Shown here one piece after another: positions 44,606 through 64,000 of a DNA stretch of 64,000 bases; the stretch's first letter is position 1, and each line of letters starts with the position of its first letter. A program made the translations under genes and the position numbers. This DNA comes from Mycolicibacterium flavescens (lineage in GTDB: Bacteria; Actinomycetota; Actinomycetes; Mycobacteriales; Mycobacteriaceae), in assembly GCF_001722335.1 (NCBI RefSeq), contig NZ_MIHA01000005.1, forward strand, positions 248,001 through 312,000, written 5' to 3'. The notes below the pieces were generated by a model that made no database searches, was not told where the DNA came from, and saw only the letters and a program-made list of their open reading frames with translations.

Positions 44606-45601
44606 GTGCAAGATCCTGGAATGAGCGGGTACGACGTCATCGGCGATGTGCACGGATGCGGAACGCAACTCGAGGCGCTGCTGCACACGCTCGGGTATCA
44701 GATCGGCGATTCGGCTTACCGACACCCGACTCGACAGGCGATCTTCGTCGGTGACCTCATCGACCGGGGAGACGAACAGCTTCGGGTGCTCGAGATCGTC
44801 AAGGCGATGGTCGACGCCGGCAGCGCCCAAATCGTGATGGGCAACCACGAGTTCAACGCGCTGGCCTATCACACGGAATGGCCCTCCGGTAGCGGCAAGT
44901 ACCTACGCCCGCACGACGATCCCGACAACCCCTGGTCAGCGAAGAACACGAGACAGCATGCCGCGTTCCTTGAGCAGGTCCAGGGCGATTATCGCCGTCG
45001 GTATCTGGACTGGTTCGCGACACTCCCCCTGTGGCTGGATCTCGGCGGGCTGCGGGTTGTGCACGCGTGCTGGCACGACGACTCAATCAAGCTCGTCGAA
45101 AGCCGTTGCGGTTCGAGTGCGCCTTTCGCCGAGCTGGCGCATCTGGTAGCGGCCAGCACCGAAGATGACCCGCTGTATGAGGCTGTCGAAACCCTGCTGA
45201 AGGGACCCGAGATCAGCCTGGTCGCGCATGGTCAGCGGGAGTACCTCGACAAGGACGGCATTGCGCGAGACAGCGCGCGCGTTCAGTGGTGGCACAGTGA
45301 AGCACGAACGCTTCGCGACATCGCCGAGATGGGCGGTGGATTCACGACTTCCGATGGTGAACCGTATTCGCCGCTGCCCGAACTGGAGCTTTCCGGTACG
45401 GAACGGTCTTACGTCTACACCGCCGAAGTTCCCGTCTTCTATGGGCACTACTGGCGGCAAGGCTCACCCAAGCACCGACATGACTGGACCGACTACACGG
45501 CATGCGTCGACTTCAGTGCCGTCAAGGGCGGAAAGCTGACCGCGTACCGATGGTCCGGCGAAACCACGATCAACGCTGAGAACTATGTGACCCCGGACTG
45601 A
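44606..45601 (+). CDS. Metallophosphoesterase (PrpE/Ap4A-hydrolase type)
   Basis: 331 residues. The metal-binding motifs are intact: IGDVHGCGTQ, FVGDLIDRGD and MGNHEFNALAY, with later His sites VVHACWHDD and FYGHYW. This fits serine/threonine-phosphatase-like enzymes that split diadenosine polyphosphates or phosphoproteins. GTG 44606 has AGAAGGGA upstream and is preferred to ATG 44621. A decayed second copy of the N-terminus follows at 45634. Confidence 0.85.
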   Translation: MQDPGMSGYDVIGDVHGCGTQLEALLHTLGYQIGDSAYRHPTRQAIFVGDLIDRGDEQLRVLEIVKAMVDAGSAQIVMGNHEFNALAYHTEWPSGSGKYLRPHDDPDNPWSAKNTRQHAAFLEQVQGDYRRRYLDWFATLPLWLDLGGLRVVHACWHDDSIKLVESRCGSSAPFAELAHLVAASTEDDPLYEAVETLLKGPEISLVAHGQREYLDKDGIARDSARVQWWHSEARTLRDIAEMGGGFTTSDGEPYSPLPELELSGTERSYVYTAEVPVFYGHYWRQGSPKHRHDWTDYTACVDFSAVKGGKLTAYRWSGETTINAENYVTPD

Positions 45602-45633
45602 GGTGCACAGATAGGCACGAGGGGAATCAAGAT

Positions 45634-45858
45634 GTGCTTGGCACGCATCGAGATCGCGAGCCGTCCGCTTCCGGTGCCATGGGGGATGTGCACGGATGCG
45701 CCACCCGGCTCGGAGCGCTACTGGCGAAACTCGGGTGTGAGTTCCGCGCATGGGGGTCGTACCGGCACCCCCAGAGGTCAGGTTCGTCCCACTCGGCACG
45801 CGAGTATCTCTGCGGGGTCAGCAGCGGGACTGGACGGCCGCTCAGCCAGCACCTGTGA
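45634..45858 (+). pseudogene. Remnant of a second metallophosphoesterase gene
   Basis: The frame from ATG 45634 contains GDVHGCATRLGALLAKLG and then YRHPQR, matching the first 40 residues of the intact enzyme at 44606 (GDVHGCGTQLEALLHTLG and YRHPTR). The second motif (GDLIDRG) and everything after it are lost, and the frame ends at 45858. Tandem duplication or import followed by decay explains it. Confidence 0.7.
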
Positions 45859-46168
45859 CCGTGCCGGCAAATCTTAGGGAGTTGTCTCACGTGCGCTGCA
45901 TCCTCGACCTAAGGGGAGACTCCACCTTTCATCCGATGGTGGACATTCCACCGTAGGCCCCTCAAGAGGAACACGGGCCAAGGCTCCGCACCCACGGAAC
46001 GCATTTTTAAAGGCCTAGGTCAGCCCAGACTGTGCTGCGCCGGGCCGTAGGATGGGCGTCGCGATGGGACGGTCGGCACTTGACTACGGCAGGCCGACAA
46101 ACAAATTGCGACTGAAAACACTCACGAGTTGCCTCCGAACGCGCAGCAAATTGGCTAACCTATCGCGC
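45859..46168. other. Non-coding stretch, less G+C rich than its neighbours
   Basis: About 310 bases between the phosphoesterase remnant and the SIR2 gene. I see no plausible ORF. There is a TCCACC/GGTGGA inverted pair around 45920-45945 and an AT-richer stretch (46090-46160) with TAACCT 8 bases upstream of the SIR2 ATG, a possible -10 box for a leaderless transcript. Confidence 0.5.
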
Positions 46169-47707
46169 ATGGGCGGGCACCTCTTCATCATCAACGGCGA
46201 CCTCACCAAGATTGCGTGCGATGCGATTCTGGTGCCGACGGACTCGGCGTTCACGATCGAAGCACCCTGGGATCGACTCCTCGCAGGCCGGAAGGACGAA
46301 CGACCCGACAGCTGGAGAGGCCGACGAGTCATCGCGCTTCCACCGCGGAGCAAGGAACCACGCATCTGGTTGGGGAATGTCGGCCAGGTCGGTCACAGCT
46401 CCGACTTTTCAGCATTCGAACCGATCGTCCGCGACTTCGTCGTCGAGGCCGCCGCAGAAGCCAGACGAAATGACGACACCGATCGCATCTACGCGTGGCC
46501 GAAGCCCAGGCTGGCCGTGAATGTGGTGGGCTCTGGACAAGGCGGAGGCTCTCAGAAGAAGGGCAACCTGATCCGCGGCCTGGTGAAGACGCTGACAGAA
46601 CTGGCCGCAGAATACGACGCCGACATCGTGTTGGTCACATTCGGACCGAAATCGTATGCGGCGGCGCAACGGGCCCGACGTCAGGTCGTCCAGAAAGAGA
46701 GCGAGACTTGGGGGTTCATCCAGTCCAACTCGCCTCTCATCGAAGAAGCGCACCGACTCGCGAATGACGCGATTGACCGGCACCTGGTGCTGTTTGTCGG
46801 TGCGGGTGCCAGCGCGGGTGCCGGTCTACCTACCTGGAAGAAACTGCTTGACGACCTCGCGATCGAGGCGGGCTTCGATGATGAGATGCGAAAGCGACTG
46901 GCGGAGCGAGACCTTCGCGACCAGGCCACCTTGATCGAACGAGAACTCAAGCGCAGAGGCGGTAACCTGAAGCGCAGTGTCGCTGAGAGGCTAGGCAATT
47001 ATCAGCGCTTCTCGCTGACCCATGGGCTGCTTGCGTCGCTGCCGAGCAGCGAAGCAGTGACCACCAACTACGACAAGCTCTTCGAAACGGCATACGAGAC
47101 CCGCGGCCGCGAAGTCGCGGTCCTACCGAATAACCCTCGCACCACCGACGGGCATTGGCTGCTGAAGTTGCACGGCACTGTTGATGCTCCGGAGACGATC
47201 ACCCTTACCCGTTCGGACTACCTGAACATGCCGCGGCAGTACGGCGCCTTGATGGGACTGGTGCAAGGCCTGCTGCTGATGCGCCGCATGGTGTTCGTCG
47301 GGTACTCGTTGGAGGACGAGGACTTCCACGAACTCATCGATGAGGTGCGCGCCGCGCGGGGAGACACCATGGAGATCGGCAGAGGTGTCGCATTGACACT
47401 CTGCGAGAATCCACTGGATCGTCAACTATGGGCGAAGGATTTGGACATCGTGCCGATGGTCACCGACCCCGGGATCAAGATCCCGGAAGCCGCCCGAGAG
47501 CTGGAACTCTTCCTCGACCTCGTCGGGTACCTCTCCACCACATCCGCCAGCTTCTTCCTCGACGAGAGTTACAGCGATCTGTCGGACAACGAAGCGGAGC
47601 TACGCGATGCACTGGCCACGCTGGCCACCAAGACCGCCGGCAGTCCCGTCGACAGCGTGAGCCATATGGTCGAAAGATTCCTCAGAGATCTCGGCGCCTC
47701 GAACTAG
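46169..47707 (+). CDS. Macro-like/SIR2 fusion protein, candidate NAD-degrading defence effector
   Basis: 512 residues from ATG 46169. The N-terminus GHLFIINGDLTKIACDAILVP resembles a macro-domain start (GDLTK/DAI), which binds ADP-ribose-type ligands. Residues about 205-430 form a SIR2-like NADase: LVLFVGAGASAGAGLPTW, TTNYDKLFETAY, LLKLHGTVD and FVGYSLEDEDF. Known SIR2 defence proteins (ThsA, DSR, SIR2-Argonaute partners) kill infected cells by NAD+ loss. The gene seems leaderless (TAACCT eight bases upstream). The macro-like reading is the weaker part. Confidence 0.8.
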   Translation: MGGHLFIINGDLTKIACDAILVPTDSAFTIEAPWDRLLAGRKDERPDSWRGRRVIALPPRSKEPRIWLGNVGQVGHSSDFSAFEPIVRDFVVEAAAEARRNDDTDRIYAWPKPRLAVNVVGSGQGGGSQKKGNLIRGLVKTLTELAAEYDADIVLVTFGPKSYAAAQRARRQVVQKESETWGFIQSNSPLIEEAHRLANDAIDRHLVLFVGAGASAGAGLPTWKKLLDDLAIEAGFDDEMRKRLAERDLRDQATLIERELKRRGGNLKRSVAERLGNYQRFSLTHGLLASLPSSEAVTTNYDKLFETAYETRGREVAVLPNNPRTTDGHWLLKLHGTVDAPETITLTRSDYLNMPRQYGALMGLVQGLLLMRRMVFVGYSLEDEDFHELIDEVRAARGDTMEIGRGVALTLCENPLDRQLWAKDLDIVPMVTDPGIKIPEAARELELFLDLVGYLSTTSASFFLDESYSDLSDNEAELRDALATLATKTAGSPVDSVSHMVERFLRDLGASN

Positions 47708-47793
47708 TTCCTGGCGGAAAGCCGGAAAGCCGGTTCCGCGAACCAGCACGCTGGCTACCGCAGAAGAAGGAATTCCTTGATGGCAGAACAGCA

Positions 47794-49077
47794 ATGGACA
47801 TAACAGTTGCGACCTGGAACACCGCATGGAGGACCCCGTCCAGTGGGCCCGGTCGCCGGATCGCGTCCATTCTCGAGGCGACTGGCGCCGATGTCATTGT
47901 TGTTACTGAGGCTGTCTCCGAGCTGTTGCCGGCCGACGGATACACCGTTGATGCCGGGCCTTACTGGGGATACTCCCAGGAGCCAGCCCGCCGCAAGGTG
48001 ATCGTGTGGTCCCGCCACCCGTTGACACCGGAACACACCGGTGAGGCGGGAGCGACCCGCGGGCGGCTCGTGGCCGCGACGGCGGCATTCCCACACGGTC
48101 CTGTGCGCATCGTCGGTGTCTGCGTTCCCTGGCCGGACGCACATGTGCGAACCGGACGCGGCGACGCCCAGAGGTGGTCAGAGCATCTGGACTACCTCGA
48201 CCGCTTCGAACGATGGCTGCCCACAGTGGATGACGGAACCCCCACGATCATCGCCGGCGATTTCAATCAACGTGTCCCGCGCAAGCGTCAACCGATCCAC
48301 GTCGCCACCAGACTCGCCGAGGCTCTCACCGGCTGGACGATCCACACGGCCGGCGCGCTCCCCAACGGCCCACACATCGACCACATCGCCACCGATCACC
48401 GCCTGGTTCTCAGGTGGGTCGATGATTGGCCGAGCTCGGATCAATGCGGCCGGCTCAGCGACCACGCTGGCGTAGTCTGCCGTCTGTCTTACTCCGGTCC
48501 CTCGACATCGTCTACACGTGCAAAATCGACATCACGCACACCCTGTTCTGAAGAGAGAGACGTCGTCGGCACCCACGATGACGGCGCCTCGTGCTCGGAG
48601 AAGCCCCGACGATGGGACGGTGGCCTAACACCTGAGCTACGAGCCGAGATCGAAGACATTCTGCGCCGAAGCAGTGAGGGTCTCACTCACGGCGCGGTCT
48701 TCCGGCTCCGCGAGAAGGGCCTCGGCCTCACCGAGATCGCAGCCGAGCGCGGGGTAAGCGTCAGTTCCACCCGCGAATTCCTCAAGAGCCTGGAGGCGCT
48801 CCTCGACGGCGCTATCCCGACCACCAAGTCTGCAGCGCTACGCAACTCATATGTCTACCGCGAATTGCTCAACCATCCGCTATCAACTGCTCTCAGCCGC
48901 TACGTCGGAGCACAACTTCAGAAGCTCAAGGAGGTCAATCCGGAAGTCAGCTCCGCCCCGCTCAAGACGCGGACTCATCAGTACCGCGTCGGGAAACGGA
49001 AACGACCGTCGGCGACGATCACCGATCCCTGCCCCGACTGCGCCGCGGTTGGGATCATTCATTCCGGTCGCTGTTAG
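47794..49077 (+). CDS. Endonuclease/exonuclease/phosphatase-fold protein with C-terminal HTH
   Basis: 427 residues. The N-terminal EEP domain shows ATWNTAW, VVTEAVSE, IIAGDFNQR, HIDHIATDH and LSDHAGV, a complete DNase I-like site. The C-terminal part is different: an HTH-like stretch (GLTEIAAERGVSVSSTREFLKSLEALL) and a final CPDCAAVGIIHSGRC that may bind zinc. The nuclease thus seems fused to a DNA-recognition module. ATG 47794 begins the EEP strand. A 7-codon ORF with a better ribosome site (ATG 47780) overlaps the start. It follows the SIR2 gene by 86 bases and may be co-transcribed. Confidence 0.75.
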   Translation: MDITVATWNTAWRTPSSGPGRRIASILEATGADVIVVTEAVSELLPADGYTVDAGPYWGYSQEPARRKVIVWSRHPLTPEHTGEAGATRGRLVAATAAFPHGPVRIVGVCVPWPDAHVRTGRGDAQRWSEHLDYLDRFERWLPTVDDGTPTIIAGDFNQRVPRKRQPIHVATRLAEALTGWTIHTAGALPNGPHIDHIATDHRLVLRWVDDWPSSDQCGRLSDHAGVVCRLSYSGPSTSSTRAKSTSRTPCSEERDVVGTHDDGASCSEKPRRWDGGLTPELRAEIEDILRRSSEGLTHGAVFRLREKGLGLTEIAAERGVSVSSTREFLKSLEALLDGAIPTTKSAALRNSYVYRELLNHPLSTALSRYVGAQLQKLKEVNPEVSSAPLKTRTHQYRVGKRKRPSATITDPCPDCAAVGIIHSGRC

Positions 49078-51470: not shown

Positions 51471-51857
51471 CTAGTTTTTTGCCAACCGATGTTCCGACAC
51501 AGACACGTTGTCACTTCTGCTGTAAATCCCGTACGCCCCGATCAACTGCCGGATTTCCGAGACGGTGGGCTGAAGCTCGTAAGCGTGGTGGTGCACCGCT
51601 CGACTGAGTCGGTGCCACACCCGTCGCGTCCGCTCACCGGCCTCGGCACCTCGAACCGCGCCCAGCGCAACAATTTTCGATCTCATGGTCGGATAGCCCA
51701 GCGTCGGCGACAACCACGACGCACTCTGTTCTTCTATCCACTCTTCCAGAACCGAGCGGGCCAGCAGCGCAGCGGTACGCGGACCACGTGCACCGAGACC
51801 GAACTGGCCATCGAGGAGTCGGTCGGCGTAGTCGAGGAACGCGGCGCGTGATGTCAC
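51471..51857 (-). CDS. Small HEPN-like protein, third gene of the MazG-SMC operon
   Basis: 128 residues, all-helical by appearance. Residues 79-95 read RVWHRLSRAVHHHAYEL; Arg83 and His89 form an Rx5H pattern as in HEPN ribonucleases, with extra His residues behind. Active HEPN toxins cut RNA in many defence systems. GTG 51857 overlaps the SMC stop (GTGA). The HEPN call is tentative; the family is not otherwise recognised. Confidence 0.6.
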   Translation of the reverse strand: MTSRAAFLDYADRLLDGQFGLGARGPRTAALLARSVLEEWIEEQSASWLSPTLGYPTMRSKIVALGAVRGAEAGERTRRVWHRLSRAVHHHAYELQPTVSEIRQLIGAYGIYSRSDNVSVSEHRLAKN

Positions 51858-54322
51858 GGCGAGAGCTTCCGCAGGTCGTCAGTCGCCAGGCGCGTCTGTC
51901 TGACCGCCTCGGTGTAGTCCTGCACGCCTTTGTGTGCACCCTTGGTGGTTACCAGCATCGCGGCGCGGCGCGCTGATCCGCCTGCGAGCCACTTCTCAAT
52001 AGCGTTGTCGTTGGCTGGATCAACGGCGAGCGCGACGCGCAGTCTGGTCGTCGTCGCGTTCTCCCACGCCTCCTCGAGATCAGCACGTGTCCGGCCCGCC
52101 GTCAGCAGGCGTGACGAATACACGTCCCATGCGGTGGCCTCCATCGCCTCGCGGCAGAGTACCGGGACGGCTTTCTTCTTGATGTCGTCGGGCACCGCGT
52201 CGTCGACGGCGATCGCATAGGCGTCGTCCAACAATCGATCAGCAGGGTGTGTCGACTCCGTCACCGAGACAACGGAGTTGGGAGCGCGTGTCAGCTCGAC
52301 GATCCGCGCCGGAGCTCGCGAGACGCGGATGGCCGAGGGCAGTCGATCGTCATGCGTGAAGACGATGACCTGGCGGGTCTCGGCGAGTCGGACGAGCACC
52401 TCGAGGAAGCCGTCGATCTTGGACGGGTCCATGGCTTGGATCGGATCGTCGAGGACCAGAAACCGGAAGGGACTCGACGGGGATGTCGCGCGAGGGATGA
52501 AGATCGCCAGCGAAAGCGCCTGCAGCTCACCTTGACTCATCACCCCGAACGCGTCGGTGCCGGAGCCGTCGACATCAGCCTTCAGCACCACGCGGCGCGA
52601 CGTCTTCTGACCCTCGAGGCGGATTTCCCCGAGGTCGACGTTGCTCTCCTGACGCAGGGCCGCCCAGATGCCCTTGGCCTCCTCGGCGAGCGGGGCGATC
52701 CGTTGATTGCGGAGTTCGCCGGCGTTTCTCTGCAGCCACTTGAGCGCCTCGTCGGCGACCTTGAGCTTGGGTGCGGCTTCGGCGGCCAGTTCCGCCTTGC
52801 GAACCCACTCGGCGAGCTCGAGAGCAACCGGCCCCCAAGCATCGGCGCGGAGCTGGATCAGTTGTGCAGCTTCCTGACGAAGGCTCGCGTAGGTCTCGCG
52901 CAGCGTGCCGAGAGTTTCTGAGATGTGTTCTACGAGTGCGATTTCGCCGTCCGCAGGTAACTTCACAAAGGCGTCGTATGCCTCGCGCGCAGCGGTGAGC
53001 GTCGTCAGTTCAGGATCAGGTGGAGGAGGCGCGGCGACTTCCCGCACCGCGGTCATGACCGCTGAACGCGCCTGGGCGGTCGCGGCGCGGGCGGCGGTGA
53101 GGGCCTGCGCTGCCTCTTGATCCTGCTCGAGTGCGGCGCGGGCGGCGACGGCCCACGTCTCGTCGAGAGTCCCGTGTGCGCAGACCGGGCACTTCTGGTC
53201 GCCGAAGTGCTCGTGAAAGTCGAGTCCCCGCTCCAGCAGCTGAGCGCGCTCGGCCGCCAGCGCGTCAGATCGCTGCGCTTCCTGCTGTTGACTCTCGGCG
53301 GCGGACCGCAGTGCCTCGCATTTGAGGGCGAGATCGTCCGGATCAGGGGCGGACAGTCGCTCGGCGCGCAGCCATGCCTGCGGGACAGCCCCGTCTGTGC
53401 CGTCGGTGATCAAGGGGCGCACGGCGTTCAGGTCCGGTTTGGTCTTGCGGAGCTGCGCCAGCGCCGTGGCGGCGCGGGGGTCGTCGTGAGACTCCAGGAT
53501 CGGTTTAAGTGCATCACGGGTCTTGCGCAGGTCGGCGGCGGGCTGGCGCAGCTGCTTGACCTCGACATCGAGAAGCGTGATGGCGCCGTTGAGCTGTTCG
53601 AGGCCGAGGAGCTTGTAGAGCTGGTCGTAGAAGGCGCTGGGGGTGCCTTCGAGGATGCCGCTCAACTCGTCGTAGCTCAGAAGCGGACGGTACATCTCCA
53701 ACGCTGTCTCCCAGCCCAGCGTCGCGATGTCTTCCTGCTTCTTGCCGGCGCGTTGGACCCAGGTCTTGCAGTCGCCGACCGGGACGTCGCCAGAGGGCCA
53801 GTCGACACCGATGACCGCGGTGCCGGAACCCTCCTCTGCCAGCCCGACGCGAATCCTGGACGTCTGGCCGGCGTGCAGGTTGCGCCAGTCCTGCGACCAG
53901 ATCGCGGGCTTGTTCTTCCAGCGCGAGTTGGTGCCGGTGAGGGCCAGCTCCAGCCCCTCGGCCAAGGTCGACTTGCCGGAGCCGTTGCGGCCGGCGACGA
54001 CGGTCAGGCCCGGACCGGGCTTGAGCGGCAACGTCACCTCCGGGCCGATGCCGCGGAAACCCTCGACGGTGATCGAGGTCAGATAGGCGCCGGTCGGCTC
54101 GGTCGTGGTGGCCGCGGGTGTGGTGAGCGATTCGACGAGTTCGGTTCGTGTGGTCTGGTCGCCGAGCACTTCGGACAGATCGCTCGAGCCCTCAAGGGCG
54201 GCCAGGACGACGAGTCGAGCTTCCTCGCTGAGGTCGGGGTCGTCATCGGCGCGGGCGAGGACGTAGTTCTTCAGGCGGGCGTCGGAGACGGCGCCGGCCT
54301 CGTCGGTAGTCGTCGACGTCAT
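51854..54322 (-). CDS. SMC/Rad50-like ATPase with zinc-hook-like motif
   Basis: 822 residues. It has a helical N-terminus (80 residues), then TSITVEGFRGIGPEVTL and Walker A GRNGSGKST (111-119). Coiled coils follow, with a CPVC motif near residue 380 (QKCPVCAHGTL) like a Rad50 zinc hook. Signature MSQGELQALSLAIFIPR and Walker B FLVLDDPIQAMD lie around 600-635, with IVFTHDD after it. It is coupled to a MazG-like gene upstream (ATGA) and a HEPN-like gene downstream (GTGA). Such ATPases often sense phage DNA and activate an effector. Confidence 0.83.
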   Translation of the reverse strand: MTSTTTDEAGAVSDARLKNYVLARADDDPDLSEEARLVVLAALEGSSDLSEVLGDQTTRTELVESLTTPAATTTEPTGAYLTSITVEGFRGIGPEVTLPLKPGPGLTVVAGRNGSGKSTLAEGLELALTGTNSRWKNKPAIWSQDWRNLHAGQTSRIRVGLAEEGSGTAVIGVDWPSGDVPVGDCKTWVQRAGKKQEDIATLGWETALEMYRPLLSYDELSGILEGTPSAFYDQLYKLLGLEQLNGAITLLDVEVKQLRQPAADLRKTRDALKPILESHDDPRAATALAQLRKTKPDLNAVRPLITDGTDGAVPQAWLRAERLSAPDPDDLALKCEALRSAAESQQQEAQRSDALAAERAQLLERGLDFHEHFGDQKCPVCAHGTLDETWAVAARAALEQDQEAAQALTAARAATAQARSAVMTAVREVAAPPPPDPELTTLTAAREAYDAFVKLPADGEIALVEHISETLGTLRETYASLRQEAAQLIQLRADAWGPVALELAEWVRKAELAAEAAPKLKVADEALKWLQRNAGELRNQRIAPLAEEAKGIWAALRQESNVDLGEIRLEGQKTSRRVVLKADVDGSGTDAFGVMSQGELQALSLAIFIPRATSPSSPFRFLVLDDPIQAMDPSKIDGFLEVLVRLAETRQVIVFTHDDRLPSAIRVSRAPARIVELTRAPNSVVSVTESTHPADRLLDDAYAIAVDDAVPDDIKKKAVPVLCREAMEATAWDVYSSRLLTAGRTRADLEEAWENATTTRLRVALAVDPANDNAIEKWLAGGSARRAAMLVTTKGAHKGVQDYTEAVRQTRLATDDLRKLSP

Positions 54323-54648
54323 CGGGCCTCGGGACCTGGATCGATCGCTTCCAGCCACAGGCGCATCGCAAAGCCTCCCCGCTTCTCACGCTTCGTTCGT
54401 GCGACCTCGCCGATGGTATCGAGGGTGACGCCGTGTTCGACGGCGATCGCAGCGAGGACTTCGAGAACGTCCGCCGCCTCCTCCAGCATCGGTTCTGTTG
54501 TTTGCACAGCTGAGAGCTCCATGGCCTCTTCGCGCAGCTTGTCGAGCAGGGCGCGGCGATAGGCGTTCGGAGACAACGTCACAACGTGGGGCGTTCGGCC
54601 CGACTCTCGGATGAGCTCCGGAATTCTGTCTCGAACGAGTTTGCCCAC
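54319..54648 (-). CDS. MazG-like NTP pyrophosphohydrolase (COG4997 type)
   Basis: 109 residues of the all-alpha NTP-PPase group: GKLVRDRIPELIRESG at the start, LREEAMELS and LEEAADVLEVLAAI (metal-binding Glu/Asp), then a charged tail ending LEAIDPGPEAR. These enzymes hydrolyse (d)NTPs or alarmones to monophosphates. GTG 54648 has GGGGAGA five bases upstream. First gene of the three-gene operon, overlapping the SMC start. It could deplete nucleotides or clear a signal; this is inference. Confidence 0.8.
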   Translation of the reverse strand: MGKLVRDRIPELIRESGRTPHVVTLSPNAYRRALLDKLREEAMELSAVQTTEPMLEEAADVLEVLAAIAVEHGVTLDTIGEVARTKREKRGGFAMRLWLEAIDPGPEAR

Positions 54649-54719: not shown

Positions 54720-55788
54720 ATGCCCGCTGAGCCCGTCGATCCGCTGCTTCTCGGCCAACGCGTGGTCGCGATCCTGGAGACCGGCCTTCGGCCGGCAACA
54801 TACAAGTTGGCGACGCTGACGGCGCTTGTCGAACACTGCATCGAGAACCTACCGACCGAGCCGGGCGACGGCCTTCATGTCCCGCTACCTGAGCTGGCGC
54901 ACCGTGTACTCGAGACCTACTGGCGTCAGGTCAGGCCGTTCGACGGTCGCGAACTCCGGCAGTCAACCCAGCCCCGAGCGCGATACTGATCGCGACGAAT
55001 GAGCTTCGCGCGGCAGCCTTCAGGTGCGCCGAATCGGTGGACGTCGCTCGCCTGCGTGCGCCCGACGCCTACCAGAAGGCGATAGACGAGGTCGCGTTGT
55101 GCCTGGCACAGCAGCCATTGCATCAGCTTCAGCGACTCCCAGGGTCTTCCGCCGGTGACCCGTTCCTGTACGACGACTCGTTTCTGCATGACCAGGTGTC
55201 ACGTTGGACCCTGCGGTCCCATGGCGACGGCATCGAGCTCAAGCCCGGCGTTGCGGCCGGTCTGGCGCGACTGGCCGGACTGTTGAAGCCCACCCTGGAG
55301 ATCATGTGGGTTGAGGATGTGCGACGAATGAATAAGTTCCTCGATGCGGAGGTCCCCGACGTGGCCGGGCACCTGTTCTGGCGTGAGCGCGCGGCCCTGG
55401 CCTCGGTCCGTGAGCCCTTCAAAGACGCGTTCGGAGCGCACTACTTCTATTGCGGAACGCATCTGCCGGCCAACAACCCGATCGATCATGTTCTGCCGTG
55501 GTCGCTTGTGGGCATCGACGGGTTGTCGAACTTGGTGCTGGCGTGCGCTCGTTGCAATGGCAATAAGAGCGGAGCTCTGCTGGCGTTGAGCATCGTCGAG
55601 CGAGTGTTGCAGCGCAATCGAAAGGCGTTGGAGCAGATCGCATCTACCCTGCAGTGGCCCACTCAGCATGAGAGGGTGGTCGCCGCCGCACGGGGGGTTT
55701 ATCGCGCCAGCCCGCAGGTGTGCCGACGTGGTCGGGCTACAAAAAGCGTGAGCGACTCGATATCGGCTTTCCCCCGCCGTGGATTTGA
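54720..55788 (+). pseudogene. Frameshifted HNH endonuclease paralogue
   Basis: Closely related to the intact gene at 36422. The N-terminus (PVDPLLLGQRVVAILETG to RPFDGREL) is in one frame up to about 54975, and the middle and nuclease domain (RAPDAYQKAIDEV, YFYCGTHL, PIDHVLPWSLVGIDGLSNL, CARCNGNKSG) in another. A second shift near 55705 returns to a frame ending GVPTWSGYKK and RLDIGFPPPW at TGA 55788. With two frameshifts the full protein cannot be made, although an N-terminal fragment might. Confidence 0.82.
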
Positions 55789-56208
55789 TCAACAGAAACG
55801 TGGACCACCGGTGAGAGTTCGAATCCGTTAAGCGGCATCCACTTCGAGTCAGCAAAAGGCTCAACGCCTTGGAAACGACTCAACTCTGCCTGCTAGGGCG
55901 ACCACAACCACGCCGTCACCCTGCACCTTCGGCGATCTGCCGACCGAGGGTCCGGGCGCATGGCATCCTCCCCATATGTACTTGCGACGACGGATCACCG
56001 CAAACTGCGGCCAGTCGAAGTGCACTGACCGGGGAGGGCGGCGTGGATCCGCACGTGGACTTACGGATCGCACCGTTCGGTCGGACAAACAGGTCACGTG
56101 TGTGGATGCCCTCAGAGATGATCACACGTCATCTCAGGCCGACGGCTGACTCACTGAACGGCCACTCGCCTTTACCCCACCACAGCTCACCACAGAGACG
56201 GGACCGGA
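55789..56208. other. 420 bases without a convincing gene
   Basis: Small ORFs occur on both strands, but none has a ribosome site or recognisable motif. There is a short stretch resembling a tRNA T-loop (GTTCGAATCC, 55818-55827) without a pairing stem. It probably holds the promoter of the SF2-GHKL operon; I see no clear -10/-35 pair. Confidence 0.5.
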
Positions 56209-57999
56209 ATGGTGACGACGGAATCGCAGGTAAACGCGACTTCGAACCTGAGCGACTTGCGCCGCCGTGAACAAGCCAAGATGGTGCGGTTCCTGCAACG
56301 CACCCTCGCCCCTCGCGAGGCGCGTGCGGCATTGGCACGATTCTCCACCGACAGCCGCGGCAGATCGATCGAGTGGATAGTGGCGGCCGCAGAGCGAAAG
56401 ACCCCACCACCCAAGACTCTCCGACTGTCAGACGACGGCGTTTACGAGTTGCTCGTCGAACTCGCCGGACCCGACTTGCTCGCAGACCGTGAGCTGCGGC
56501 GGCTGATCGCTCGCAACAGTCATCCCCGCATACTCGACAAGCTCCACGAGTACCCCTCCGCGACGCGCGGCCGTGGAGGTGACGGTTCCAAGGCAAACGC
56601 CGTCGCGCAACGTAAGTGGCACCCAGGAAAATCCTGGGCTGTGCACTTTGTTCGAACCATCAATATGCCGCTGTCCTTCGCGGGTTCAAGAGGCAGCACG
56701 AACCTGCCCGACACACTCGACGTCGAGCCGTGCGTCAAGTTGCCGGGTCTGGCCGACTTCCAGCTGGAACTCTTCGAGAGACTCGTGGAAGTGCTGGTCG
56801 GTCCCGACGATGCCAACCGAGCGATACTCTCGCTTCCGACCGGTGCCGGGAAAACGAGGACCGCTGTGGAAGCGCTCCTGAAGTGGCGACAGTCACGCGA
56901 CGATCGACCGCTCATCCTTTGGATCGCACAGAGCGACGAGCTATGCGAGCAGGCAGTACAAGCGTTTCGTGAAGTATGGTTCGACCTCGGCCACGGCGAC
57001 CGGTCATTCCGGGAAACATTGACGATCGGTCGGCTGTGGGGTGACAAGAACGCGGAACCATCGGGATGCGGCGTCGTCGTGTCCAGCATCCAGAAGCTCA
57101 GTGCTGCAGCTGCAGGTCGCGGAACCTTCACAGGGGAACAACTTGAGAGTCTGCAAGAGACTGTGGGAGTCGTCGTAGTGGACGAAGCCCACCGCGCCCT
57201 CGCACCCAGTTACGGTGATGTCCTCAGCGCACTCGGGTTCAACTTCCGTCAGAAACATGGACCTACGGCTCTGATCGGTCTCACCGCAACCCCCCGTCGC
57301 AGCAGCCAGGACGAGACCGCACGACTACGCCGGCGTTTCCACAACAACATCCTCACCGCACCCAGCCTCGGGGCCGACCCCGTGCAGACGCTACGCGGCC
57401 GAGGCGTCCTTGCCCGGATCGAGGAGGAGTGCCTCGATTACGACGCCGACCGAGTCGAACTGTCAACGACTACGGCGTATGCCGAACATTACGAGGCGTT
57501 CGACGATGTGCACCCAGATGTGCTCACGAGACTCGGCGAAGAGCACCGACGTAATCGGCGGTTGATCGAGCGACTCCTCGACCTAGATCCGACGTGGCCG
57601 GTGCTCGTGTTCGCCTGTTCCGTTCAGCACGCCCAGGCCTTGTCCAGTCTGCTGCGACGCCGCGGCAGATCCTCCGCGTGCGTCCTCGGCACGACCAGAC
57701 CCGCAACACGGCGAGCCATCGTCGAACAGTTCCGCAACAACGAACTTTCCGTGCTCTGCAACTACGGTGTGCTCACCACGGGCTTCGATGCCCCGTCCGT
57801 GCGTTGCGTGGTGGTCGCGCGCCCGACGACGAGCAATGTGCTGTATGAGCAGATGGTCGGTCGCGGGATGCGTGGTCCCGCATTCGGCGGCACTGAAAAG
57901 TGCTTGATAATCGATGTCGAAGACAACATCCAATGGCGCAGTCTGCCGGCAACAGTTCATTACTCTGCCCTTGAGCGGGAGATGCGGCATGCCAGGTGA
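56209..57999 (+). CDS. SF2 DEAD/DEAH-type helicase, first gene of a four-gene module
   Basis: 596 residues. The N-terminal 180 are an unassigned domain. The motor has LPTGAGKTRTA (Walker A), VVVVDEAHRAL (DEAH box), GLTATPRRS (motif III) and YEQMVGRGMRG (motif VI), with LVFACSVQHAQAL at the start of the second RecA domain. It resembles type I/III restriction and SSL2-type motors. ATG 56209 chosen. The GHKL gene follows 86 bases later. Confidence 0.85.
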   Translation: MVTTESQVNATSNLSDLRRREQAKMVRFLQRTLAPREARAALARFSTDSRGRSIEWIVAAAERKTPPPKTLRLSDDGVYELLVELAGPDLLADRELRRLIARNSHPRILDKLHEYPSATRGRGGDGSKANAVAQRKWHPGKSWAVHFVRTINMPLSFAGSRGSTNLPDTLDVEPCVKLPGLADFQLELFERLVEVLVGPDDANRAILSLPTGAGKTRTAVEALLKWRQSRDDRPLILWIAQSDELCEQAVQAFREVWFDLGHGDRSFRETLTIGRLWGDKNAEPSGCGVVVSSIQKLSAAAAGRGTFTGEQLESLQETVGVVVVDEAHRALAPSYGDVLSALGFNFRQKHGPTALIGLTATPRRSSQDETARLRRRFHNNILTAPSLGADPVQTLRGRGVLARIEEECLDYDADRVELSTTTAYAEHYEAFDDVHPDVLTRLGEEHRRNRRLIERLLDLDPTWPVLVFACSVQHAQALSSLLRRRGRSSACVLGTTRPATRRAIVEQFRNNELSVLCNYGVLTTGFDAPSVRCVVVARPTTSNVLYEQMVGRGMRGPAFGGTEKCLIIDVEDNIQWRSLPATVHYSALEREMRHAR

Positions 58000-58085
58000 G
58001 CTCTGCCACGCCGCCACGAAATGACCGTATCCGCGCCCTGGACAGCCCAAGATGAGTGACAACCGATGTACAGCGTTGAGGGAGA

Positions 58086-60035
58086 GTGTTGACCGTTACC
58101 TGGCGATGGGAAGAACAGAGCCGCAACTACGCGAATTACGGGAACGCCAACCAGTGGACGGTGAACGCCGGCCTGTCGTCGCTCGCCCGCGAGAGCGCAC
58201 AGAACAGCAATGATGCACGGCTGCCGGGGTCCGGGGCCGACCTCGTGTACTCGTTCATCGTTCTGACAGGCGAAGACCGGAAACGCTTCGAAGACGCGGT
58301 CGCCTGGCATGACCAGCTGGAGCCACACCTCGCAGCGATGGCCTGCGCGGCGACAGGCGCCGTGACCGCCGGCCAGCTTCATTCAGGGCTCGCAGCACTC
58401 AAATCCGCGGACTCCCTCACCTTGCTACGGATTGCCGACTATGGCGCCAAAGGGCTCACCGGCCCCGAGTTCGCCGAGGGCGACGCCGATGCCTACGGCA
58501 ACTTCGTCAAACTGTGTCGTTTGGATCTGTACAGCGGTAAGGACAAGACTTCTGGCGGCTCGTTCGGCCTGGGCAAGGCCGTCTATTGGCGGTTCTCACG
58601 GCTCCAGACGGTACTGTTCAACTCGACACTGCAGGCCTCCGACGCCGTGAACGGTTACTGGCACAACAGGATCATCGGGGTCAATCAGGGTGTCGTGCAT
58701 CAACTCTCCGGTAAGAACTTTCAGGGCCGGGGTTTCTTCGGCGTTCAGGAACGCAACGGTGACGTTGCTTCTGTTTGGGAAGACACCGACCTGGCGGATC
58801 GCCTCTGGCTCCGCCGCGAAGACCACCGTCCCGGGACCTCCGCGCTATTGCTCGGTTTCTACGATCCGGACGAACCAGACAAGGGACTTGGCGACATCGG
58901 GCAGGTCAACGAGTTCGCCAAGAGTCTGGAAGCCGCGATCGAAGAGGAATTCTGGCCGCTGCTCACACGAAATCGTCTGCGGGTGCGCGTGGAAGTCCTC
59001 GATGGTGACCGGATCATCTACCAACACACCGTCGACCCCGAAGAGCAATACACCGAACTCGTCCGCGCCCTACGGAAGGTCGATTCGGGCCAGATCGATG
59101 ATGAGTTGAATGAACTAGGTGATGTCGTCGTCAGGGACGTGCCGATTGCGATCTCTGCACGCACCGATGTCAACGAGCGGCACATCGCTTTTCAGCACAC
59201 CGCGAAGCTGGTCGTCACCCTCTCCGATGACCAGAAGGATTCTCTCGAGAACAAGGTCTGCCTCTTCCGGCGCCCCGAGATGGTCGTGCAGACCGTCGAC
59301 AAGGAGTTCGAGGGCCGCACCTACCATGCGTTCTTGATGGCGGGTGCAGCCGTCAACCCGGAGTCACCGTCTTTGGAGGAGGAACGGGCGGACGACTTCC
59401 TCCGATTCGCCGAGCCGCCCGCACACGACCAGTGGATCCCTGGGTCCGGCCGCACGAAGACCTCGCAGGCCAACCTCACCGCTCACTACAAGGCCCCGTG
59501 GGTACCGAATCTCAAGAACATTCGCCAGGCGATCCTGGATCAACTGTCCGACATTTTCGGTGCCCCACCGCCATCCGGGGACAAGCCGCCGAAGTCGATC
59601 TTCAAGAATCTGGGTTTCCTGCAGGGCGAGCCAGGCGGAGGTGGGGGGCGTGGGATCGCGCCGGCCCGCAAGCCGGAGATACGGATCCACAATGCCACGG
59701 TCATCGACGGGGCCTGGCATCTCGACTTCGAGATCCGCGCCCGCAACCGTCCTGAAGGATGGTCGGTGGAGCCGCGCCTGGCTTTGGTCGGGCTCGATGG
59801 CGGCCATCAGGACATCGCATGGGAGCAACTGGATGCCGACCCGCCGGCCGAGCAGTTCGGAATGACAGTGGTCCTGCTCCACAAGCCCCGCGGGCGGCTT
59901 CTGACAACCACTGTCCGTGGAGTGAGCACGACGACGCTTCCCATACCAGCGGCGGAGTCTGCAGTGGACATACGTATCGGTCGTGCCGATGTCGCCCCGG
60001 CCTCCGCACAAGCAGAAGCGAAGGACATCCAGTGA
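58086..60035 (+). CDS. GHKL ATPase (MutL/MORC/Hsp90-like), second gene of the module
   Basis: 649 residues. The Bergerat-fold boxes are readable: N-box LARESAQNSNDA (34-45), G1 box IADYGAKGLTG (116-126) and G2 box GGSFGLGKAVY (157-167). The rest has a beta-rich middle (IIGVNQGVVHQLSGKNF) and a Gly-rich linker near 535. MutL/MORC-like ATPases occur in prokaryotic restriction-like operons with SF2 helicases (family knowledge). The start is GTG 58086 or TTG 58089; the stop overlaps the next gene (GTGA). Confidence 0.83.
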   Translation: MLTVTWRWEEQSRNYANYGNANQWTVNAGLSSLARESAQNSNDARLPGSGADLVYSFIVLTGEDRKRFEDAVAWHDQLEPHLAAMACAATGAVTAGQLHSGLAALKSADSLTLLRIADYGAKGLTGPEFAEGDADAYGNFVKLCRLDLYSGKDKTSGGSFGLGKAVYWRFSRLQTVLFNSTLQASDAVNGYWHNRIIGVNQGVVHQLSGKNFQGRGFFGVQERNGDVASVWEDTDLADRLWLRREDHRPGTSALLLGFYDPDEPDKGLGDIGQVNEFAKSLEAAIEEEFWPLLTRNRLRVRVEVLDGDRIIYQHTVDPEEQYTELVRALRKVDSGQIDDELNELGDVVVRDVPIAISARTDVNERHIAFQHTAKLVVTLSDDQKDSLENKVCLFRRPEMVVQTVDKEFEGRTYHAFLMAGAAVNPESPSLEEERADDFLRFAEPPAHDQWIPGSGRTKTSQANLTAHYKAPWVPNLKNIRQAILDQLSDIFGAPPPSGDKPPKSIFKNLGFLQGEPGGGGGRGIAPARKPEIRIHNATVIDGAWHLDFEIRARNRPEGWSVEPRLALVGLDGGHQDIAWEQLDADPPAEQFGMTVVLLHKPRGRLLTTTVRGVSTTTLPIPAAESAVDIRIGRADVAPASAQAEAKDIQ

Positions 60036-60988
60036 CCCCGCGGTTCGCCTGGCCCACCTACCGAGATCAATGGGATTGCCAGGTAACAGGGTTCAAGCTC
60101 GATGGCGAACCCGACGACGATGCCATCGATTCGGACTACCTACGACTGAAAACCCCGGAGCGGGTGTGGGCGACCGCCGACATCGAACTCTCGGCCACCA
60201 CGGATGAGCCCCTCCCCACCGGGTTGAGCGTTTTGACGGCCCATGTTCTGCTTGCGTGCGCGACAACGCAACTGCGTCGCGCATACCCTATGGTCGAGCA
60301 CCCAGATGGCTCTCGGTTCGACGCCCAGATCTCCATCCCACGGTCGGCCCTGACGCAGAAAGCATCGCTGTCGGTCGAGTTGGTCGCCACGCACGGTGAA
60401 CGGCAGCGGATAATCGGCACCGGCGTCGAATGGACGCTGGTCGTGGATCCTGGTGAAGCCCCGCGACCTGCAGGGGCCCCTCCCATAAGCAGTGCCTGGC
60501 TCGACTTCAAGAGTGATGACGCTCCGCCGGAGGCTCGACGCAGTCCGATGAGTTACTGCTACCTCGACATCAACGAAGCGCCGCCGCTGCTGTATCTGAA
60601 CAGCGGCATAGACGGATTCGAGACGCTGATCAAAGCTGAGAATGCGAAGCTGGAGCGTCGCCGACATCGCGACCTCATGGGTGCGATGATCGCCCGCCAG
60701 GTCACGAACTCGCTGCTGCGTGCCGCGGTCGAGGAGATCACTCCCGGTGAGCACGGCGCACCGGCCACCGGGCCGGCGACACGCATCCTCCAGAACACCT
60801 GTGAGGCGCTCGCACGGGAGCTACCAGACACGAACACCGCGGAAGACCTCTATGAGAAGGTCGCCGCGTTGGACGGCAATCTTACGGCCACAGCTCAGTT
60901 CTGGGCCGAGGCAGATCTAGTGCTGGACCGAATGACCGGCCTGTCAGACACGGTCATGAACGTATGCAAGGACGTCAAACATGTCTGA
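60032..60988 (+). CDS. Uncharacterised third protein of the SF2-GHKL module
   Basis: 318 residues. The N-terminal part is beta-rich (FAWPTYRDQWDCQVTGF, then ATADIELSATTDEPLP and IIGTGVEWTLVVDPG). The C-terminal half is helical with FETLIKAENAKLERRRHRDLM and a late TQFWAEADL-like segment. Coupled by overlap to genes on both sides, so it is probably a subunit of the same complex. No named domain recognised. Confidence 0.7.
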   Translation: MTPRFAWPTYRDQWDCQVTGFKLDGEPDDDAIDSDYLRLKTPERVWATADIELSATTDEPLPTGLSVLTAHVLLACATTQLRRAYPMVEHPDGSRFDAQISIPRSALTQKASLSVELVATHGERQRIIGTGVEWTLVVDPGEAPRPAGAPPISSAWLDFKSDDAPPEARRSPMSYCYLDINEAPPLLYLNSGIDGFETLIKAENAKLERRRHRDLMGAMIARQVTNSLLRAAVEEITPGEHGAPATGPATRILQNTCEALARELPDTNTAEDLYEKVAALDGNLTATAQFWAEADLVLDRMTGLSDTVMNVCKDVKHV

Positions 60989-61787
60989 TGCACTGCACAC
61001 GCTCGCTATACGCCTCGACGCAGTCCAACGCCACCAGTTCGAAGACAAGCAGGATTCACGAGCCACAGAACTACGGCGGCCGGACGGCAGCTCGGTCTCG
61101 CTCGACGTGCTAGACGCCCTGATGGCCGAGGTCAAGACACGAACAACCGAGGACTTCTGGGAGGACAGGACTCACAGCGACCGATGGCTCGCCCCTCGGG
61201 TGCATTACGCCCTTCGACTGTTGCGCTCGGAGGCCGCCGACCGCGGAGTCTGGCAGTGGCTCGCACTGCGCTTTGCCTGGTACGTCGAGTGGCGGTGGGC
61301 CGGCGCAGACGGGACTGTCGCAGATGATCGCTGGTGGGGTCCTATTCACAAACAGGTCTTCGCCCGATTGTGGTGGGGGACCGAGATCTTTCGTGATGGT
61401 GCGGACTACCGGCCCGTCGAGAAAGCATTCAGGTTCCAGGATCTACCGAATAGCTATCTACACCGGCCGATAGTCAGGTGTCGGTCGCTGGCGATCGCGA
61501 TTGTCGATCGAATCGACAAGTCGGGAACGCCAAGTTCAGATCAGGTAAATGATCTGGCTCGGGTCCTGAATCTGGCCACAGTCGGTACCCCTCCCGAGGT
61601 CGAGACTGGTTACCAGTCAGATGATTTCGATGCCTACGACAACTGGTGCAGCTCAGCACCGGCACTTCCAGCTAGCTGGGACGATTTGCCGCCAGGGCCG
61701 CAGGCCATCGACACCAACAGCGACTCGATACAAGGCGCATCACGAATTGTCGAACGCGCTTGGGACTATGCCGGTCTGGAAAAATGA
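60981..61787 (+). CDS. DUF6339-like fourth protein of the SF2-GHKL module
   Basis: 268 residues, Trp/Asp-rich. It contains EDFWEDRTHSDRWLAPRVHYALRL and RGVWQWLALRFAWYVEWRW, then DRWWGPIHKQVFARLWWGTE, which fits the DUF6339 family found next to GHKL ATPases and helicases in actinobacteria (from memory). ATG 60981 overlaps the previous gene by 8 bases. The function is unknown; membership in the complex is inferred from coupling. Confidence 0.68.
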   Translation: MSDALHTLAIRLDAVQRHQFEDKQDSRATELRRPDGSSVSLDVLDALMAEVKTRTTEDFWEDRTHSDRWLAPRVHYALRLLRSEAADRGVWQWLALRFAWYVEWRWAGADGTVADDRWWGPIHKQVFARLWWGTEIFRDGADYRPVEKAFRFQDLPNSYLHRPIVRCRSLAIAIVDRIDKSGTPSSDQVNDLARVLNLATVGTPPEVETGYQSDDFDAYDNWCSSAPALPASWDDLPPGPQAIDTNSDSIQGASRIVERAWDYAGLEK

Positions 61788-61865: not shown

Positions 61866-62285
61866 GTGGGCACACCGAATCACATATCCGACTCGCTCAT
61901 CTCCGCTTTGACCGAAGCACGTATACCGACGGAGAACCATAGCTTCATTCGCGCGATGACCCAAGCCGCCGGCGTCGACAGCTACCGCGTCGTTGACCAA
62001 GCCGGCAAACCGTACGTAGCAGCCACGCGACACGATGGATCCCGCGATCTCCACATCTACTATGGCGCCACGAACGGATTCGCGTCAGAAGAAGAGACGA
62101 TCAGAATCGCACCTGACGCGGTCGGCCGAGGTCCCAGCTCGCGAAAGGGGACCTGGTATGTGTTACACCCCTTGAATCAGGCTCGTGTTGGCGGTGAGCG
62201 TTCGCGGGATGTCCGTCGTAAGGCCGGGTTCTGCGATTGCGGTATGGAACTGTCCCTGACCGGAGCATGCAGCAGCTGTGATTAG
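61866..62285 (+). CDS. Uncharacterised small protein with C-terminal Cys cluster
   Basis: 139 residues. An N-terminal 90-residue domain (HISDSLISALTEARIPTENHSF, LHIYYGATNGF) is followed by a basic stretch and a Cys cluster FCDCGMELSLTGACSSCD that could bind zinc. GTG 61866 has AGGG upstream. It lies 78 bases after the DUF6339-like gene and may belong to the same transcript. No known family. Confidence 0.6.
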   Translation: MGTPNHISDSLISALTEARIPTENHSFIRAMTQAAGVDSYRVVDQAGKPYVAATRHDGSRDLHIYYGATNGFASEEETIRIAPDAVGRGPSSRKGTWYVLHPLNQARVGGERSRDVRRKAGFCDCGMELSLTGACSSCD

Positions 62286-62494: not shown

Positions 62495-63367
62495 ATGCCG
62501 CTCGTGTTGACGCAGAACGAGAAGAGTGCTGCAGCAATAAGCTACGACGACCAACTCGGCACCAGTTACGAGTTTCCGACGAGGTACAAGAAGCTTGTTG
62601 TGCCCGGCGAGGCCTTTGTCTACTACCGCGGTAAACGATCCGCTTCTGGCGCTATTCAGATTCCGCACTATTTCGGAACAGGCATAGTTGGAGCCGTTTC
62701 TCCTACCGGCGACGGGCGATTGCGTTGCAACATCCTAAAATACCGCGCTTTCAGCCTCACCGTGCCCTTCAAGCGCGAAAGTCGCTACTTCGAACCCGGC
62801 GCCAATGGGCGGTCCCCGAAGGAGGTCGGCCTGCACTTTCGCACGGGGGTGCGCACGATCGATCAAGATGCTTTCAACGAGATCCTCGATGCCGCAGGCA
62901 TCGAACATCAGATCAAAAACAAGGTCACCGCAAAGCGAGTGACGAAGGTATCCCTACCGGTGAATACACATGACAGCATGGATGCTCTCGCGATTGCACT
63001 CGCAATATCCGAAGTGAAGGACCAGTGGCCTTCGGCCACAATCTTCCGAGCCCCTCCGGGGCAGTACTTCTCACTCATCGTGCGCCACCCGAATGGCGAT
63101 AAGCACCATGTATCCGTGAAGTCGACCGAAGAGGACGAACCACGCATTCATCTATCGGAGGGCGAGGTCGCCTACGCGTCAGCGCATGCTGCATCGTATT
63201 CACTGTGGGTGTTTTATGCGCTGGACATACAAGCAGGTACCGGAAAGTTGATCAAACGCAAAGGACGGATCACGGATGACGACATAGACCTCCGTGCCGC
63301 AGTCCACGGCGGGAGATTAAAGAACACGACGGCTGGTAAGGATGTCGGGCCGGTTGTTCCACCGTGA
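62495..63367 (+). CDS. EVE/PUA-like N-terminal and DUF3883-like C-terminal protein
   Basis: 290 residues. The N-terminus has YEFPTRYKKLVVPGEAFVYYRG and IPHYFGTGIVGAV, typical of EVE/PUA-like readers that recognise modified bases. The C-terminal third (VSVKST at 206-211, then IHLSEGEVAYASAHAASYSLWVFYAL) matches the DUF3883/NO VEIN type seen in restriction-like proteins. The usual IEVKS Glu is Ser here, and the preceding GxDI-type Asp is not evident, so the nuclease-like site may be inactive. A modification-dependent restriction role is inferred. Confidence 0.7.
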   Translation: MPLVLTQNEKSAAAISYDDQLGTSYEFPTRYKKLVVPGEAFVYYRGKRSASGAIQIPHYFGTGIVGAVSPTGDGRLRCNILKYRAFSLTVPFKRESRYFEPGANGRSPKEVGLHFRTGVRTIDQDAFNEILDAAGIEHQIKNKVTAKRVTKVSLPVNTHDSMDALAIALAISEVKDQWPSATIFRAPPGQYFSLIVRHPNGDKHHVSVKSTEEDEPRIHLSEGEVAYASAHAASYSLWVFYALDIQAGTGKLIKRKGRITDDDIDLRAAVHGGRLKNTTAGKDVGPVVPP

Positions 63368-63795: not shown

Positions 63796-64000
63796 TTACG
63801 TTAGGATCGCTGATGGTTCGCCTGTCCAGAAGAGGGCCAACCGCTCCCGCGCCCGCGTGCCGGCCACGTACAACACCCGAAGTAGCCTTTTATCCTCTTG
63901 GTCGCGTTCGTCACCGTGCTTCTGCTGCACGAAGTACGGCGGGAAAGATTTCGATCCGAGCCGCGCTATCGCCACAGCGCGATACTCAAGACCTTTGGCC
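63796..64000 (-). CDS. C-terminus of a UvrD/Rep-type helicase, cut by the right edge
   Basis: The minus frame entering from the right edge reads AKGLEYRAVAIARLG (motif V) and LLRVLYVAGTRARERLALFW (motif VI), the end of an SF1A UvrD-like motor, and stops at 63796. The N-terminal motor and any nuclease lie outside the window. It could be a component of a Gabija- or Zorya-like or repair operon; the sequence here cannot tell. Confidence 0.8.
   Translation of the reverse strand, partial: AKGLEYRAVAIARLGSKSFPPYFVQQKHGDERDQEDKRLLRVLYVAGTRARERLALFWTGEPSAILT

Follow-up and report, generated by a model that had tools for sequence, protein, structure and literature searches.

A mycobacterial GHKL ATPase module with its own RadD-like helicase and restriction-type neighbours

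A stretch of 64,000 nucleotides from Mycolicibacterium flavescens (contig NZ_MIHA01000005.1, positions 248,001 to 312,000; hereafter the window) carries four co-directional open reading frames (ORFs) on its + strand, at 56209..61787. In order, they encode an SF2 helicase (HEL), a GHKL ATPase (GHKL), a protein with a β-sandwich (P3) and a DUF6339 protein (P4). The last three genes, which we call the triad, are an old module and the deep unit; the four-gene unit led by HEL is confined to one mycobacterial clade among the loci examined. We propose that these proteins act as an ATP-gated DNA clamp serving methylation-based restriction, which would join the recognition of unmodified DNA to the helicase and to an external nuclease. 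With its own RadD-like helicase and its DISARM- and ARMADA-like island, the module is a new form of a kind already known but uncharacterised.

Conservation and composition of the module

The ORF coordinates agree with a preliminary description of this DNA, which reported four genes in one direction with the last three overlapping: in the window, GHKL and P3 share GTGA, and P3 and P4 share 8 bases. The length of P3 is counted from the GTG within the first overlap, its open frame starting earlier, at 59759. The identities given there to the four products (SF2 helicase, GHKL ATPase, β-rich protein, DUF6339-like protein) are upheld by the matches and models described below, and the loci of relatives bear out that the module, of MORC/MutL-like GHKL type, is conserved and comes with a helicase and two proteins of no assigned function, placed in a defence-type island. 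The association is not due to chance, because close relatives keep the identical gene order.

The GHKL gene and the third triad gene lie on the same strand and in the same order in all 42 loci counted, from Actinobacteria to haloarchaea; the count left out L011, L033 and L038-L041, the last four as near-copies. P3 could be placed in 39 of these 42. Of the 39, 22 have a 4-base overlap between GHKL and P3 and 13 an 8-base overlap between P3 and P4; in 20, the genes overlap at both junctions. Pfam recognises DUF6339 in 35/42 third genes (E ≤ 0.001), with no match at 0.01 in L061, L062, L066 and L070 and a weak one in L067 and L071. The third gene of L065, L066 and L071, and of L062, L068 and L070, was counted through references chosen by position; without such references the third gene is found in 36/42 loci and the P3 gene in 32/42. 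The ORFs of unannotated loci come from a simple script.

Triad members occur in Actinobacteria, Synechococcus, Lactococcus, Ligilactobacillus, Priestia, Deinococcus and four haloarchaea. The family is sparse, with 15/401 mycobacterial-family genomes at 1e-10 (three of them weak), 5/396 genomes of the genus at 1e-20 and 11/396 of the phylum at 1e-15. In the 21 loci whose homology is clear, pairwise distances correlate between GHKL and P3 (r 0.91) and between GHKL and P4 (r 0.94), and none of 999 permutations is as high; we prefer this restricted set to a wider one (r 0.93 and 0.95), which mixed P3 proteins of unclear homology. A viral origin was considered and rejected: no relative was found in viral contigs, and phage records yielded one distant unannotated match.

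Pfam gives no match for the GHKL protein at E ≤ 1, but the N-box, G1 and G2 motifs of the protein are all present (RESAQNSNDA, DYGAKGL and GGSFGLGK). Residues 30-459 match the PADLOC model PDC-M33A at 1.7e-23, and the core residues are invariant across both alignments (A1 and A2). The ExxxH motif, given as the mark of paraMORC2 by Iyer, Abhiman and Aravind 2008 (PMC2292703), is formed by E443 and H447, neither of which varies in any of the 19 diverse rows aligned. The C-terminal PD-(D/E)XK (DUF4263) domain of paraMORC3 and GHKL-Shedu proteins was not found in the GHKL protein by Pfam at E ≤ 1.

Some relatives depart from this plan. By eye, the GHKL proteins of a distant mycobacterial-family group (L023, L024, L027 and L028) carry an N-terminal XRE-like helix-turn-helix, which in L024 weakly matches RmrA. 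The GHKL open frame L064:9030-12626 is 1198 amino acids (aa) long, about twice the usual length. On a Haloplanus plasmid the GHKL gene (L033:7998-9979) is broken and annotated as two ORFs, with P3, DUF6339, DISARM-like genes and a C5 methyltransferase present. In G299 the triad is directly followed by a second HATPase-type protein (L053:5234-7123, 629 aa) with a weak Pfam HATPase_c match.

P3 has no Pfam match at E ≤ 1. Its AlphaFold2 model (35-row alignment, pLDDT 88.3, pTM 0.53) shows a β-sandwich followed by helices. The P3 profile aligns over 295 columns, nearly its full length, with haloarchaeal and cyanobacterial second-subunit proteins (E 5.6e-17), and weakly with PDC-M33B-type relatives (E 0.0044, probability 7.9). 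P4 reaches 24.7 bits against a cut-off of 23.2 for Pfam DUF6339 (PF19866), a family for which our literature search found no paper. It is modelled as almost all helical (33 rows, pLDDT 92.4, pTM 0.91), and its profile matches PDC-M33C-type proteins at 6.8e-12. Structure prediction had been suggested for revealing hidden nuclease folds in these two proteins; none is significant among the Foldseek matches listed for the two models, a comparison that barely reached the C-terminal half of P3.

HEL matches Pfam ResIII (4.5e-21) and Helicase_C (1.6e-13), and its motifs are intact: GAGKT (Walker A), DEAH and QMVGRGMR (motif VI). It also matches NCBIfam RadD at 5.8e-34, with 117 bits, far under the family cut-off of 720. 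The gene lies directly before GHKL in the window, in M. peregrinum (G001), in G299 and in G798, that is, in all four loci with a GHKL identity to the window of 88% or more; G941, at 71%, has no HEL before its triad. Among the loci examined, conservation of the four genes together thus holds in this one mycobacterial clade, and elsewhere only GHKL, P3 and P4 stay together. We also considered HEL as a recent cut-down of HEL-L, a large helicase of the neighbouring island (1545-1700 aa, with a ResIII-type helicase end). HEL separates from HEL-L as a distinct clade with a long branch; such an origin by truncation is therefore not supported.

Methyltransferases and the neighbouring island

As the preliminary description stated, the window itself shows no methyltransferase or Vsr: tblastn at E ≤ 1e-4 with eight C5 methyltransferases, one Eco57I-like methyltransferase and two Vsr proteins found none, though not every methyltransferase family was scanned against all window ORFs. 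About 2.2 kb downstream of P4 lie inside the window.

The gene-order survey proposed at that stage gives a different picture for the relatives. It was made with references, partly drawn from the loci surveyed, and replaced a single-linkage clustering that merged DUF6339 with methyltransferases, partly because of a fusion protein (see below). Of 44 loci entered, 41 received a score. The other three, L062, L068 and L070, fell short of the 1e-8 limit for GHKL, and all of them had methyltransferase matches in the clustering step. A methyltransferase lies in the examined flank of 32 of the 40 scored triad loci. Seven of the remaining eight have a C5 methyltransferase 10-40 kb off on the same contig, and the eighth is the window. 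Outside the window, all 39 scored triad loci therefore lie within 40 kb of a methyltransferase, and the two are adjacent in L004, L008 and L013. C5 methyltransferases occur in 30/40 and Vsr in 14/40 triad loci. In G001-G010 a methyltransferase lies within 32 kb in ten of ten, against 0.21 expected genome-wide, the limit having been chosen after the distances were seen.

L068:12349-14187 (G585) provides a natural link between DUF6339 and a C5 methyltransferase. Its third gene encodes a 613-aa fusion of DUF6339 (134-237) and a complete C5 methyltransferase domain (301-607; PF00145, 5.9e-38).

All three relatives found with the HEL-led unit (G001, G299 and G798) carry a C5 methyltransferase with an adjoining Vsr in the same island, 27-40 kb away. 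There and in G002, a common cluster faces the module: a C5 methyltransferase, HEL-L, a UvrD of about 610 aa (cut, in G798, by the sequence piece examined), DrmA and DrmB; the proteins of G299 served for typing by Pfam and PADLOC. In G001, G299 and G798 the methyltransferase has a recognisable Vsr as its neighbour. The N-terminal stretch of HEL-L, encoded beside DrmA (G299; L074:6171-10907 and relatives), matches TmtA and, weakly, Sacsin. In G001, four further genes lie between this cluster and the module. They encode an SNF2-type helicase, an Eco57I/PglX-like methyltransferase whose gene is about 11 kb from GHKL, an MZB (YprA-like) helicase and a UvrD. Homologues of these four ARMADA-like genes occur in G002 and G798, more interrupted in the latter; in G299 the UvrD alone was recognised. 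Further afield, HEL-L and DrmA stand with a methyltransferase in L003 and L009; HEL-L, UvrD and DrmA are divergent to the triad in L055-L058, with the methyltransferase beyond DUF6339; and DrmA and DrmB are directly upstream of the triad in L059, L060 and L006.

The window reaches the edge of this arrangement. Its last gene, cut by the window edge, is the C-terminal tail of a UvrD-like helicase, which is 86% identical over 66 aa to M. peregrinum L001:6926-9193 in matching convergent orientation, and whose readable motifs are KGLEYRAV and RLLRVLYVAGTRARERL. In M. peregrinum this UvrD, with about 285 residues before its helicase domain, stands first in the ARMADA-like and DISARM-like island, which also carries Vsr and methyltransferases. 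Since the window ends inside the island-opening gene of G001, and given the islands of the relatives, we expect methyltransferases beyond base 64000. Their lack in the window is probably an effect of its edge.

Proposed role and its alternatives

The grounds for the clamp are the conserved unit, the intact ATPase and helicase motifs, the association with methyltransferases together with one fusion, and the exchangeable helicase. Several points weigh against it. No nuclease was recognised within the triad, and neither PADLOC PDC-M33B against the P3 frame (59759-60988) nor PDC-M33C against P4 gives a match at E ≤ 1. The co-divergence of GHKL, P3 and P4 would also follow from plain vertical descent. 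L011, from Planctomycetota, has a GHKL relative (25%) with no recognisable DUF6339 partner. The genome-wide chance estimate disregards the clustering of defence genes. Within the clade that carries HEL, the C5 methyltransferase lies far off and belongs to a convergent cluster, so that a shared function is not forced; for the window, the methyltransferases are predicted from relatives and not directly seen. Finally, our literature searches found no experimental test of such a triad, and a search combining GHKL, phage defence, helicase and methyltransferase found nothing from 2018 on.

The main rival, which we hold to be unlikely yet worth serious weight, is an independent defence system: the triad, with or without HEL, would need no methyltransferase and would merely gather in restriction-rich islands. 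Against it stand the methyltransferases within 40 kb of every scored locus outside the window, their proximity far above genome-wide expectation in G001-G010 and the natural fusion in L068.

Rather improbable is a role in repair, with the triad as a MutL-like assistant of Vsr in mending the T:G mismatches left by deaminated 5-methylcytosine. The combination of GHKL, helicase and Vsr resembles very-short-patch repair (PMC2292703), and the frequencies of C5 methyltransferase and Vsr reported above speak for it.

A touch less probable still, the triad could be a guard that senses when the restriction system beside it is inhibited or damaged and then shuts down the cell. PrrC and RloC are such guards beside type I systems. 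The exchange of partner systems between loci fits a guard, the XRE-like N-terminal extensions hint at regulation, and HEPN-fused paraMORCs have been described (PMC3710099). Against it, P3 and P4 show no toxin or RNase domain by Pfam or among the Foldseek matches listed.

The methylation-free four-protein complex that the preliminary description proposed as a new type is highly improbable: no methyltransferase was found in the window or within about 9 kb in G299, and the four genes stay together in their clade, but the three unit-bearing relatives found have C5 methyltransferase and Vsr in their islands, G001 has in addition its nearer Eco57I/PglX-like enzyme, and the window ends inside the first gene of such an island.

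Neighbouring genes and known systems

Table 1 Module and downstream genes in the window.
Feature	Coordinates	Strand	Length	Description
HEL	56209..57999	+	596 aa	RadD-like SF2 helicase; N-terminal ~180 aa without assignment
GHKL	58086..60035	+	649 aa	GHKL ATPase, paraMORC2-type, PDC-M33A-like; GTG start; by motifs and PADLOC
P3	60032..60988	+	318 aa	N-terminal β-sandwich, C-terminal helical; by AlphaFold2 and profile match
P4	60981..61787	+	268 aa	DUF6339 protein, almost all helical; by Pfam PF19866 and AlphaFold2
Cys-rich-tail protein	61866..62285	+	139 aa	No Pfam or NCBIfam match
NOV_C-type protein	62495..63367	+		Possible PD-(D/E)XK domain; weak, 17.7 bits against cut-off 22.1
UvrD-like helicase	63802..63999	-		C-terminal tail (ArmD-like), cut by window edge; convergent with module

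Downstream of the module, a NOV_C-type gene follows DUF6339 in three loci: the window, M. peregrinum (55%), where only 6 bases separate it from P4, and Williamsia (39%), whose protein reaches 44.5 bits, above the cut-off. At the position two residues ahead of the conserved Lys, Williamsia has Glu, the window Ser and M. peregrinum Ala. We take NOV_C to be a nuclease-type fold.

Elsewhere in the window, two copies of an HNH endonuclease gene (36422-37531 and 54720-55831) lie 18.3 kb apart and share two stretches of 71-74% DNA identity. The coding sequence of the second copy is divided between two frames, and HNH relatives occur near the triad in G798 and G941. An SMC/AAA ATPase (51854-54358, - strand) has PADLOC similarity to mad3 and LmuB, with a PRA-PH protein gene just upstream on the same strand. 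At 46052-49077 a SIR2_2 protein adjoins an endonuclease/exonuclease/phosphatase protein, possibly another defence pair. A 71-nucleotide direct repeat with copies 1040 bases apart (73%) lies at a metallophosphoesterase gene region (44638-45748). Among relatives, a single row on an Arthrobacter agilis plasmid (L035) comprises dcm, vsr, a restriction enzyme, a DUF3320 protein, the triad and a Shedu gene.

ARMADA type II has the gene order SNF2/RapA helicase, adenine-type methyltransferase, YprA/MZB helicase, UvrD (PMC12458937). The order in G001 agrees, convergent to the module, its first gene being typed through the G798 homologue; the window holds the UvrD tail only. This ARMADA-like cluster is a neighbour and lies outside the four genes; the terms GHKL, MORC, Sacsin, HSP90 and histidine kinase are absent from the main text of PMC12458937.

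DISARM comprises DrmA, DrmB, DrmC and DrmMI/MII (PMC9142583). DrmA/DrmB and a C5 methyltransferase adjoin the triad or share its island in many loci, with a PLD-type gene as well in haloarchaea; the portion of PMC9142583 considered here describes DISARM without a GHKL triad. A search of the window at 1e-4 detected none of the Drm proteins. In relatives, the DISARM set (DrmA, DrmB, DrmM) lies in the island next to the module.

PADLOC lists related triads as the candidate PDC-M33 (A, B, C), for which a literature search found no paper naming it. The GHKL of the window matches A, as does that of Deinococcus (1.5e-108), and for Lactococcus there are matches of P3 to B (3.7e-63) and of P4 to C (3.7e-47). 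The window unit appears, by these models, PDC-M33-like and not a formal member, because its own P3 and P4 fall short of B and C.

Another of the closest known systems is paraMORC2, found mainly in Gram-positives and cyanobacteria (PMC2292703); that work of 2008 already reported such GHKL proteins from restriction operons. Shared with it are the GHKL motifs, ExxxH and Gram-positive and cyanobacterial members. The MORC and paraMORC neighbourhoods reported there hold SF2 helicases, methyltransferases and Vsr, and the module likewise has restriction-type neighbourhoods with an SF2 helicase, C5 methyltransferase and Vsr. The fixed pair of P3 and DUF6339 is unnamed in the sections of PMC2292703 drawn on here; in our loci, the triad is fixed and the helicase variable.

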